Assembly: GCA_001512785.1 (NCBI GenBank)
Contig: LFSQ01000029.1
Coordinates: forward strand, 1-51,437
Direction of reading: 5' to 3'
Length of the DNA stretch: 51,437 bases
From: Syntrophomonas sp. DTU019
GTDB lineage: Bacteria; Bacillota; Syntrophomonadia; Syntrophomonadales; Syntrophomonadaceae
The notes beneath the pieces are model-generated. The model was not told the DNA's origin and made no database searches. It saw only the letters and a list, made by a program, of their open reading frames with translations. Position numbers and translations under genes: made by a program. Position 1 is the stretch's first letter, and the number at the start of each line of letters is the position of its first letter. Below are positions 11,352-14,646 of this stretch, in pieces.

Positions 11352-11813
11352 TTGGGTTTTGACCGGCAAGGTATATGGATATACGACGGTTGGGCCAGGC
11401 ACAGCAGATATCAGAGCCTGGTTTTATACCTGGGGTTTGGTGCACTCACTACACTGACCAATATAGGGGCTTATTATGGCCTTACCCAATTGGCGGGCTT
11501 ACCTTATCTGGCGGCTAACCTTTTAGCCTGGATTATTTCGGTGTCATTTGCCTATGCAACCAATCATTGCTTTGTGTTCAGATGCAAAACCCGCGGATGG
11601 CTGCCTGTTTTTGAGCAATGCCTGGCTTTTTTTGGCGGCCGCTTGTTGTCGGGTGGGCTGGATATGGCAATAATGTTTGTTTTTATCGATGTGTTTGCTT
11701 GCAATGATGTCTTCACCAAGATAGCTGCCAATATAGCGGTCATAATATTTAATTACCTTTTTGCCAGGTACGTCGTGTTTCACAACAAAAGGCAGGGAGA
11801 AGTGCTGCAGTGA
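11352..11813 (+). CDS. GtrA-family membrane protein (polyprenyl-phosphate sugar flippase)
   Basis: This 153-aa protein has four membrane helices in the GtrA pattern. Typical elements are FGALTTLTNIGAYYGL in helix 1, FAYATNHCFVF after helix 2, and NYLFARYVVF at the end. GtrA proteins are thought to flip undecaprenyl-phosphate glucose or similar. The downstream glycosyltransferase starts within its stop codon (GTGA overlap), which ties the two functionally. The TTG start at 11352 is the longest frame and has only a weak ribosome site; a start some codons downstream is possible. Confidence 0.85.
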   Translation: MGFDRQGIWIYDGWARHSRYQSLVLYLGFGALTTLTNIGAYYGLTQLAGLPYLAANLLAWIISVSFAYATNHCFVFRCKTRGWLPVFEQCLAFFGGRLLSGGLDMAIMFVFIDVFACNDVFTKIAANIAVIIFNYLFARYVVFHNKRQGEVLQ

Positions 11814-12748
11814 AGAAAATATCGATTGTAATACCCTGTTATAATGAACAGGAGGTATTGCCCTACTTCTATGCTGAGCTGGCCAAACTGGCCCTGGATA
11901 TGCCCTTCGCAGCCTTTGAGTTCGTTTTTATCGATGACGGGTCAGAGGATGGCACCCTCGCTGTGATAAAAGACCTGCAGGGCCGGGACGGACGGGTAAA
12001 ATACATTTCTTTTTCCCGCAATTTTGGTAAAGAATCGGCTATTTATGCGGGTTTGAAAAATGCCAAAGGCGATTATGTGGCCATAATCGATGCTGACCTG
12101 CAGGACCCACCCATGCTGATCAAGGATATGTACCGCATCCTGACAAATGAAGGCTGCGACTGTGTTGCTGCCAGAAGGACCAACCGCAAGGGTGAGCCCC
12201 TGCTCAGGTCGTTTTTGGCCCGGCAGTATTATCGCCTCATCAATGCCCTGGCAAATATAGAATTGGTAGATGGGGCCCGCGATTTCAGGCTGATGAACCG
12301 GCAGATGGTTGATTCAATTCTCCAGATCTGCGAGTACAATCGTTTTTCCAAAGGGATTTTCGCCTGGGTAGGATTTAAAACCAAATGGATAGAATACGAC
12401 AACCGGCAAAGAGCCGCCGGCAAGACCAAATGGTCTTTTTGGAAGCTCTATGTTTATTCGCTGGACGGAATTATGGCCTTCTCCACCACCCCCCTGGCCT
12501 TGTCCTCTATTATCGGTTTGGTGTTCTTCCTGTGCTCGTTGCTTATCATTCTGGCCATGGCTGCCAAATACTTGATCTGGGGTGGTTCGCTTTACGGCTG
12601 GCCTTTTCTGGTCTGCATACTGTTGTTTATTACCGGGATTCAGCTCTTTTGCACCGGCATTGTAGGGCAATATGTGTCCAGGACCTATATGGAAGCTAAA
12701 CGAAGGCCGATATACATTGTCAAAGAATATAGTGACGAATGCTGCTAA
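11810..12748 (+). CDS. GtrB-like glycosyltransferase family 2, polyprenyl-phosphate hexose synthase
   Basis: The 312-aa protein has a GT2 domain with IVIPCYNEQEVLP, FIDDGSEDGT and the DXD region IDADLQDPP. SFSRNFGKESAIYAGL is the acceptor-side motif seen in dolichol-phosphate-mannose-synthase-like enzymes. Two C-terminal helices (about 230-255 and 262-290) are the GtrB type. It should transfer a sugar from a nucleotide donor to undecaprenyl phosphate on the inner face. GTG 11810 overlaps the gtrA stop by 4 nt. A bidirectional terminator follows at 12781-12804. Confidence 0.9.
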   Translation: MKKISIVIPCYNEQEVLPYFYAELAKLALDMPFAAFEFVFIDDGSEDGTLAVIKDLQGRDGRVKYISFSRNFGKESAIYAGLKNAKGDYVAIIDADLQDPPMLIKDMYRILTNEGCDCVAARRTNRKGEPLLRSFLARQYYRLINALANIELVDGARDFRLMNRQMVDSILQICEYNRFSKGIFAWVGFKTKWIEYDNRQRAAGKTKWSFWKLYVYSLDGIMAFSTTPLALSSIIGLVFFLCSLLIILAMAAKYLIWGGSLYGWPFLVCILLFITGIQLFCTGIVGQYVSRTYMEAKRRPIYIVKEYSDECC

Positions 12749-12815: not shown

Positions 12816-13478
12816 TCAGCAGTCACACAATGCCAGAACCGCCAGCCAGAACTTGGCATGACCATATTCGTCTCCAGCAATGTTAAGAATCAGGGCTCTT
12901 AAGACCGGATCATCCACCATGTCGGCCATGGCCGCATACATGGAAACTGCCCCGATTTCATCGGCAATAGCTCCCTCCACCAAATCACAGAAGTCTTTTT
13001 TATCATCATCCCGGCAAAAATCATCGTCAAACCTATGGTGCTTTTTGGGCATCATGTCGTCAAAATCGTCAAAATGCCTTTTTGGCATCATATCGTCCTT
13101 TTTGTCGCGGTCTCTTTTACGATCCCGGTCTTTTTTGTCATCATCCCACCATGTGGGCTTTTTATCCTCATCAGATTCATCCCACCACTGGTGCTTCTTA
13201 TCGTCCTCGCATTCATCCCACCATGTGGGCTTTTTGTCATCTTTGCATTCATCCCACCATTTGGGCTTTTTGTCATCTTTGCACTCATCCCACCATTTAT
13301 GCTTTCTGTCTTCCCTGCAATCATCCCACCAATCGTGGTTTCTGTCATCCTCATGGTCAACAAAACACCACCTGTGTTGCTTATCCTCAGGTTCGAAGTA
13401 CCATTTGGACTTTTTGTGCTCCGGGCGTCTATGGCTTTTTTTGGCCATCCTTGCGCGGCGATGGTTCTTTTTCGGCAT
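12816..13478 (-). CDS. WWD-repeat protein with C-terminal two-helix ferritin-like domain (220 aa)
   Basis: I know no described family with this architecture. Residues 1-47 are basic, rich in Lys, Arg and His. Residues 48-119 hold six tandem 12-residue repeats, consensus (H/P)xWWDECxDDKK, four of which carry the Cys (the first reads WWDDC). Residues 120-155 are Asp/Lys/His rich with a duplicated DDMMPK(R/K)H. Residues 158-220 form two helices with DEIGAVSMY and GDEYGH; the E and the ExxH fit the metal-binding pattern of rubrerythrin-like ferritin folds, but only half of a four-helix bundle is present, so it would need to dimerise. Start: GGAGG lies 8 nt before ATG 13478, better than ATG 13511. 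It is divergent from a second protein with the same kind of half module. Metal binding or oxidative-stress function is inference. Confidence 0.75.
   Translation of the reverse strand: MPKKNHRRARMAKKSHRRPEHKKSKWYFEPEDKQHRWCFVDHEDDRNHDWWDDCREDRKHKWWDECKDDKKPKWWDECKDDKKPTWWDECEDDKKHQWWDESDEDKKPTWWDDDKKDRDRKRDRDKKDDMMPKRHFDDFDDMMPKKHHRFDDDFCRDDDKKDFCDLVEGAIADEIGAVSMYAAMADMVDDPVLRALILNIAGDEYGHAKFWLAVLALCDC
13122..13337 (-). repeat. six tandem 36-bp coding repeats (WWD repeats)
   Basis: Six in-frame 36-bp units encode (H/P)xWWDxCxDDKK variants. The third and fourth units are the most alike at DNA level, which suggests growth by slippage or unequal crossing-over, while the outer units have drifted. 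Confidence 0.85.
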
Positions 13479-13634
13479 CCATCCGACCTCCTCTGGTGTA
13501 TTTAGCCACATCGGCTATACCATATTATGGAACGGCCTTTAAGGTAGTGCCTGTACCTGTCAAACTTTCCCGGCAGGTAACATATCGGGTATTCAATCCG
13601 TATACTGGTAAAAAAACATGAGGAGTGAATATAC

Positions 13635-14402
13635 TTGAACTCGGACAGATTCAAAACCCTGATTAAGGTGGCTAAAAAACACAAAATAAAAAGCCTGGAA
13701 TTATATAAAGATCTGGTTGACAAAATCCCTAACCAGGACCTTAAGGAATTGCTTAAAGAGAATATCCTGGCCGGTGAAAGAAAGCATCGCCGTTTCTTCG
13801 CTGACGCAGATGAAGAGGTGGATAAGGGATATGATAAAAGGGAATATAAGCCCGGCTGTGATGACGAGGAGGGTTTCAAGCATCTCACCATACCCCTTAA
13901 ACAGGGAGCATTTATAAGCAAGTATTACCCGGACCGCAATTTCAATGATTATGATGCCTTATATCTGGGGCGTTATGGCCTGCCCGAAAATATCTTTCGC
14001 ACCCTGATGGAGTTCAAACTCCATAAAATCCCGGACAATTGCACTATCACTAAAGCCGAATTGGTTATTACCCTGTGCACCAATGAGCTGCCCGATAAAG
14101 GGGCTCCAATCACCATGCACCCGATTTTGACTGACTGGTCGGAGAAGACCGTAACCTGGAATGACGGCCCCAAAATGGCCAGGGAACACTGGAAAATCAT
14201 GGTTCCGGGAGGGGTATTGGGTGCTCTGTGCATAGATGTGAAGGATTATGTTCAGGATTATTGGGAATGCCCCAATCACGGCTTTATGCTCATCGGACCC
14301 GAATTCCTGAACGGCGTTATCGGAATTGAAGCCGAAGACTACGGCCCTCACCGCAAAGCCCCTTACCTGAAAATAGAAATGGAGTGCGGCCATGATGAAT
14401 AA
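13635..14402 (+). CDS. half-ferritin-like module fused to DNRLRE domain (255 aa)
   Basis: Residues 1-60 form two charged helices with KSLELYKDLVDKI and AGERKHRRFF; the E in the first and ExxH (ERKH) in the second repeat the layout of the divergent neighbour's ferritin-like module. Residues about 80-250 match the DNRLRE beta-sandwich domain: ITKAELVITLCTN, PITMHPILTDWSEKTVTWN, a DVKDYVQDYW strand and HGFMLIGPE. DNRLRE domains are usually found on exported surface or matrix proteins, yet there is no signal peptide here. TTG 13635 is chosen because AGGAGTG lies at 13621-13627. The next gene starts inside its stop region (ATGATGAATAA). The function is unknown. Confidence 0.75.
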   Translation: MNSDRFKTLIKVAKKHKIKSLELYKDLVDKIPNQDLKELLKENILAGERKHRRFFADADEEVDKGYDKREYKPGCDDEEGFKHLTIPLKQGAFISKYYPDRNFNDYDALYLGRYGLPENIFRTLMEFKLHKIPDNCTITKAELVITLCTNELPDKGAPITMHPILTDWSEKTVTWNDGPKMAREHWKIMVPGGVLGALCIDVKDYVQDYWECPNHGFMLIGPEFLNGVIGIEAEDYGPHRKAPYLKIEMECGHDE

Positions 14403-14646
14403 TAAATCCACTCGCTATGATGCTTTAACCCGACTGTTCAATGAAAGGTATAAATCCCGGCTGGAAATCTGCCAGCAGCTCGCCAGTCAGGTGAGAAAAA
14501 CCCATAAATTGCAAACCTCTCATCAAGCCAACCGGGCGGGCTTTAAAAAGGGCATAAATCATGCTTCAATTGCTGAAATAGAAAGCCTTGCCGGCTTAAC
14601 CCCCCAGCAGATACGACAGCACCTTGTCAACCACATGAAATCATAG
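14392..14646 (+). CDS. small basic helical protein (84 aa), unknown
   Basis: I do not recognise it. It is a basic, Gln- and Asn-rich helical protein ending in IESLAGLTPQQIRQHLVNH, which could be a short helix-turn-helix-like or protein-binding tail. Its ATG overlaps the end of the DNRLRE gene by 11 nt, so the two are very probably translated together, and it may serve the half-ferritin/DNRLRE protein. Confidence 0.55.
   Translation: MMNNKSTRYDALTRLFNERYKSRLEICQQLASQVRKTHKLQTSHQANRAGFKKGINHASIAEIESLAGLTPQQIRQHLVNHMKS

Follow-up and report, generated by a model that had tools for sequence, protein, structure and literature searches.

The closest described systems are half-ferritins of the EncFtn type, represented by Rru_A0973 from R. 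rubrum and PFC_05175 from P. furiosus (PDB entries 5n5e and 2e0z; pfam family PF22277), in which helix 1 carries a glutamate and a tyrosine, and helix 2 carries the motif ExxH. Half-ferritins of this type have so far been described as encapsulin cargo; M. xanthus possesses two paralogous halves, EncB and EncC (7s5c, 7s5k, 7s8t), both of which are cargo of the shell. In ferritins with H and L chains, the catalytic chain co-assembles with a chain that has Lys in place of the ferroxidase Glu. Apo-EncFtn is monomeric, and the dimer site, to which each of two chains contributes Glu32, Tyr39, Glu62 and His65, is assembled by Fe(II); the E32A and E62A variants assemble without iron, the charge repulsion being lost (PMC5012862). 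Members of the ferritin superfamily, namely rubrerythrins and Mn-catalase coat proteins (CotCB, CotD, CotG), are also present on the spores of Clostridia, many of them under the control of sporulation sigma factors (PMC3789822, PMC8745062), and rubrerythrins have been detected in the spores of Moorella (PMC8745062).

The window, that is, the whole stretch of 51,437 nucleotides that was analyzed (contig 111 of a 2.17-Mb genome in 155 contigs), contains two divergent genes, here denoted A and B:

12816..13478, minus strand: gene A, 220 aa; Trp-rich charged repeats, then a C-terminal EncFtn-type half-ferritin
13635..14402, plus strand: gene B, 255 aa, TTG start; Lys-substituted hairpin, linker, DNRLRE/CBM96 sandwich
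13487..13492, minus strand: AGGAGG ribosome-binding site of A, 8 nt 5' of ATG 13478 (from the sequence)

Both open reading frames are found where the first-pass annotation had placed two outward-reading genes. The longest open reading frame of A reaches back to ATG 13511; the start is set at ATG 13478 because of the AGGAGG sequence upstream, the promoter position and the exact 156-bp gap, and the 156-bp shared region that had been described is correct with this start but not with ATG 13511. The start codon of B is preceded by GAGGAG. Directly before A, at 11352-12748 on the plus strand, are genes for a small polytopic membrane protein, GtrA-like as judged by eye, and a PgfS-like glycosyltransferase; the same two genes precede A in G002 and are possible surface glycosylation genes. 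An 84-aa open reading frame (gene C, 14392-14646, plus strand) overlaps the 3' end of B; as a candidate third component it was rejected, having a homolog in G003 but none downstream of B in G002. Neither the DNA of the locus nor the A half has a match in plasmids, and PHROGs families are matched only through the DNRLRE part.

Protein A combines charged repeats with a helical hairpin:

13141..13351, minus strand: 36-bp tandem repeat of A, 5.9 copies, WWDECKDDKKPK-like units
12819..13004, minus strand: half-ferritin hairpin of A (profile and fold matches, ligand conservation)
12957-12959, 12867-12869 and 12858-12860, minus strand: codons of the ligands E174, E204 and H207, respectively

The repeat units are rich in Trp, Asp, Lys and Cys; Trp-containing charged N-terminal extensions are present in A proteins of the same genus only (G002, G003) and absent from all other A proteins. 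AlphaFold2 predicts the C-terminal hairpin (helices 157-187 and 191-217) with a block pLDDT of 94-98, and the N-terminal part with low confidence. A search started with a ten-sequence profile identifies P. furiosus EncFtn as the best relative of A in the PDB (5n5e, E=1.5e-5; 2e0z, 1.4e-4). A Foldseek search against the PDB also places 5n5e at the top (0.9 A over 60 columns), followed by R. rubrum EncFtn, M. xanthus EncB and EncC, and nearly all top matches are EncFtn, EncB or EncC, with the qualification that the E-values are modest (0.04 and up) and the match is confined to the hairpin, 60 of the 220 residues. The ligand set, including a tyrosine, consists of E174, Y181, E204 and H207, the helix-2 motif being DEYGH; E204 and H207 are conserved in 19/19 A proteins and E174 in 18/19, the exception being an Asp (G073). 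The matches to curated families stay below the cut-offs: 17.1 vs 27 bits for PF22277 and, with far larger gaps, 31.7 vs 90 for NCBIfam EncB_fam (E=1.2e-7) and 27.1 vs 125 for TIGR04535 (E=3.2e-6). Given the profile and fold matches along with the conservation of E174, E204 and H207, A is a half-ferritin distantly related to EncFtn that lies outside the curated EncFtn families. The original description of A, Trp-rich charged repeats followed by a C-terminal two-helix segment with a Glu in helix 1 (E174) and ExxH in helix 2 (E204xxH207), holds throughout.

The EncB_fam and TIGR04535 E-values, though far under the cut-offs, would fit an ordinary encapsulin cargo, with the shell gene located elsewhere in the genome or divergent. 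A search for the encapsulin shell (Linocin_M18, PF04454) yields matches in 0/63 genomes of the window's class and does detect the positive-control genomes, and the C-terminus of A, examined by eye, has no cargo-loading peptide. The cargo interpretation is thus highly improbable, and was dropped because no shell gene is present in the 63 genomes.

Several proteins about 150-180 aa long (L011, L013, L014, L017, L071) contain two A-like halves in one chain, with two DEYGH/DEYAH motifs; these natural four-helix versions in places adjoin a single-half gene. Bacillota bacterium Soudan_17 has, after an A gene, a gene for a small helical protein (L045, 4430-4678) that may resemble DUF1657.

Protein B has the following features:

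13635..13829, plus strand: half-ferritin hairpin of B (hhalign to A, PDB profile matches)
13683-13685, 13776-13778 and 13785-13787, plus strand: codons of K17 (helix-1 ligand column), E48 and H51, respectively
13890..14390, plus strand: DNRLRE/CBM96 beta-sandwich, about residues 86-251

In the AlphaFold2 model, the B hairpin (helices 3-29 and 34-63) has a modest block pLDDT of about 63-77 and is connected to the sandwich by a low-confidence linker, so that helical hairpins are predicted in both A and B, each modeled as a single chain. The two hairpins are homologous according to hhalign (probability 93%, E=2.7e-7), in agreement with the claim that related half-ferritin modules are joined here to unrelated partners. 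A search of the PDB with the B hairpin profile detects the designed di-iron DF proteins (4e-7) and TM1526 (2e-6). In the alignments, Lys17 of B matches E174 of A, a Glu of TM1526 and the helix-1 Glu of the DF proteins, which is their helix-1 metal ligand. Among the residues of B, Lys17 shows the highest conservation (15/17; the other two sequences have Asn and Thr, and Glu occurs in 0/17), and its position in the ligand column, combined with the homology to A, indicates that B is a half-ferritin with a metal ligand swapped for Lys. In helix 2, E48 and H51 are each present in 13/17 B proteins and both together in 12/17, so that ExxH is lost in 5/17; it is present in 4/4 B proteins of a second class (GERKH in the window). 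The other glutamate of helix 1, E22 (SLELY), lies outside the ligand column and is not conserved. The claim of a helix-1 Glu and ExxH in B stands, accordingly, for E48xxH51 only, the helix-1 ligand position being occupied by Lys17.

The sandwich scores well above the cut-offs of NF033679 (77.4 vs 34 bits, E=1.3e-21) and PF24517 (45.9 vs 26, 6.9e-12), and Foldseek matches its fold to the carbohydrate-binding modules 8wab and 7vbo; the hairpin of B is indeed N-terminal to a DNRLRE beta-sandwich, as had been proposed. This partner domain is variable: seven B proteins contain DNRLRE, other tails are found elsewhere, and the sole constant part is the A-like hairpin. Five B proteins outside the window's class (L117, L139, L140, L141, L150) share a C-terminal [VI]-W-T-F-G-like motif (VLVWTFGKN, PLVWTFGRS, VLIWTFGKK, ILVWNLGKT and LLVWTFPEP) that is absent from the DNRLRE-fused B proteins and could act as a peptide for docking or targeting. 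Pfam matches of B to BDHCT and DUF3666 are below the cut-off, and neither is accepted as its identity. A rubrerythrin split into an N-terminal half (A) and a C-terminal half (B) is suggested by Pfam coordinates, the C-terminal 60 residues of A aligning only to the first half of the Rubrerythrin family (PF02915, positions 2-52 of 137) and B to positions 86-135. This reading was also rejected: the two halves of rubrerythrin are alike and the match of B is weak (E=0.055), so the coordinates are not evidence of a split, and A and B each cover one half of the family, whereas a rubrerythrin is a single-chain four-helix protein with two ligand sets.

Among the 63 genomes of the window's class, A and B are found in the same 13, which belong to six genera, and the genes are adjacent and divergent in 13/13, although the pairing is not blind for the ten A-neighbors from which the B profile was built. 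The A-type matches have E-values of at most 1.4e-27, the next weaker being near 5e-13 (one fragment aside), and the B-type hairpin matches at most 7e-10, the next being at 1e-6; outside these 13 genomes, the class has nothing comparable to B. A naive Fisher test of this co-occurrence gives about 1e-13, an overstated value because the genomes share ancestry. Out of sample, four A genes are found in 98 genomes of the second class, which was picked through one phylum-wide match, and each of the four is accompanied by a divergent gene whose hairpin has Lys17 and ExxH. In a third lineage (G361), a B-like gene with Gln in the Lys column and an intact ExxH precedes A on the same strand. Three genomes (G140, G099, G204) encode A but have no recognizable adjacent B, so A can do without B. 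The constant core of the locus is hairpin A plus hairpin B, and co-occurrence in other genomes, at 13/13 in one class whichever gene is taken as the starting point and at 4/4 in another, bears out the expectation that the two genes travel together, here among distantly related anaerobic spore formers.

The first-pass annotation had further proposed that the two halves share one four-helix di-metal site. The A and B hairpins would then pair 1:1 into a hybrid bundle, with Glu and ExxH supplied by A and ExxH by B. The homology of the hairpins, the tight co-occurrence with divergent linkage, and the retention of ExxH in 12/17 B proteins, all four from the second class included, are compatible with such a composite site, but the helix-1 column of B is Lys rather than Glu, A occurs without B, the single-chain A-A tandems hold two complete A-type ligand sets, and the genomes in which B lacks ExxH keep the A ligands (with one Glu-to-Asp replacement, in G073). 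The Lys substitution and the loss of ExxH in B, while the A ligands persist, make the composite site quite improbable, and this part of the annotation is not upheld. Because the A ligands persist where B has lost ExxH, A needs no ligands from B and can therefore pair with another A to complete a site of the EncFtn type. Physical contact between A and B in a heteromer is plausible.

Examination of the intergenic region identifies two promoter candidates:

13521..13548, minus strand: sigma-K-like promoter of A, AC-N17-CATAATATG, one mismatch to CATANNNTA
13580..13607, plus strand: tentative, weak promoter of B, AC-N17-CGTATACTG, two mismatches (from the sequence)

The promoter of A ends 42 nt before the start codon. 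When the motif AC-N15..18-CATANNNTA is scored with at most one mismatch, it is found in the A direction in 13/13 loci (shuffle mean 5.85, with 0/500 shuffles reaching 13), usually 28-61 bases before the start codon, and perfect motifs number four vs 0.43 in shuffles; in the B direction, it is found in 10/13 loci, the window itself not among them (shuffle mean 4.63, 2/500). In all these counts, the sequences are related and the shuffles ignore relatedness. Among out-of-sample A genes, the motif is present in 5/7, compared with 24/138 control open reading frames (17%; P about 0.002), and in the B direction it is present in 0/4 loci of the second class. The sigma-K promoters of C. difficile have the -10 element CATATAAT and the -35 element AC, and the -10 element of sigma-E is very similar (PMC3789822). 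Given this similarity, the fair statement, judged by motif, is that the promoter of A appears to be of the mother-cell type known from sporulation, with sigma-K as the more likely factor. The window's genome encodes sigma-K (above the cut-off) and SpoIVA; the latter is found in 54/63 class genomes and is thus so nearly universal that the ability to sporulate does not discriminate the genomes with A and B. In G004 (S. zehnderi OL-4), the sigma-K profile matches two complementary pieces on different contigs (C9:66752-67084 and C26:5428-5778), as if the gene were interrupted by a skin-like element.

In anaerobes, ferritin-like proteins and rubrerythrins commonly serve in oxidative stress, and A and B could serve in vegetative cells under iron or oxygen stress, in which case the CATANNNTA-like motif would be a chance AT-rich sequence, especially with one mismatch allowed and a background of 17%. 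The in-sample and out-of-sample enrichment of the motif upstream of A, as well as the Trp-rich charged repeats, which look coat-like from their sequence, argue against this possibility and leave it unlikely. Another explanation takes A as a complete homomeric EncFtn-like protein and B as a spore protein in its own right, with a carbohydrate-binding or structural role and a hairpin that forms homodimers only. Divergent genes with sigma-K-like motifs, the presence of A alone in some genomes, the degenerate ligands of B and its variable partner domains all agree with two independent proteins; the only constant part of B is, however, the very hairpin that resembles A. Such a division of the pair is somewhat unlikely, and so, to the same degree, is its corollary that A and B are linked by a common regulated intergenic region and not by contact between the products, given that the linkage is kept in the second class despite the 0/4 count of the B motif, and in G361 as a same-strand tandem.

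The interpretation that we favor, tentatively and at a little under even chances, is that A and B are a catalytic-type half and a Lys-bearing partner half of a shell-less EncFtn-type system that is made during sporulation and anchored in the spore coat. A and B would be paralogous two-helix half-ferritins, divergently transcribed and working without an encapsulin shell. Two A hairpins would form a four-helix bundle in which E174, E204 and H207 of each chain make up a symmetric di-metal site that would probably handle Fe(II) or peroxide. B would be the partner half, probably non-catalytic, with the conserved Lys in place of the helix-1 ligand Glu; this Lys could form salt bridges to glutamates of A. 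By analogy with EncFtn, where removal of Glu abolishes the charge repulsion, B is expected to need no metal for pairing, whether with A or with a second B, and would serve as a scaffold or cap rather than as a second ferroxidase: the A dimer is predicted to be metal-gated, and the A:B or B dimer metal-independent. Both proteins would probably be produced late in the sporulating mother cell, the sigma-K-type promoter being firm for A only, and the complex would be held in the spore coat by lineage-specific fusions, the Trp-rich charged repeats of A and the CBM96 sandwich of B. The pair may represent an unrecognized two-part metal-binding module of the spore surface. A more specific version, with an A:B heteromer, iron-independent assembly, and a metal-binding building block of the coat that carries interchangeable surface anchors, is doubtful.

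If the favored interpretation is correct, the half-ferritin is used here as an assembly part and not as a caged enzyme, nature has provided in this locus a test of the model in which metal gates EncFtn assembly (the E32A phenotype), and the pair is a candidate metal- or oxygen-protection component for spore coats that, in syntrophic anaerobes, are poorly known. A literature search, to which subscription papers were largely inaccessible, found no description of a linked pair of ligand-complete and Lys-substituted half-ferritins, and nothing relevant on DNRLRE in spores or on split or heteromeric half-ferritins. Compared with the known systems, A has the same helix-1 Glu and Tyr and helix-2 ExxH as EncFtn but lacks an encapsulin shell, is linked to a Lys-substituted paralog, has a sporulation-type promoter and, in the window's genus, is fused to Trp-rich repeats. 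A matches the fold of EncB and EncC; unlike in that pair, one half here has no helix-1 ligand, and there is no shell. The resemblance to H- and L-chain ferritin is an analogy, not a case of homologous pairs, ferritin consisting of full four-helix subunits in a 24-mer cage. The sandwich of B is the DNRLRE/CBM96 domain (PF24517, NF033679; 7vbo, 8wab), joined to a half-ferritin hairpin and not to a polysaccharide lyase. The rubrerythrins and Mn-catalases of clostridial spores, in turn, are full-length four-helix proteins and include no half-ferritin pair.
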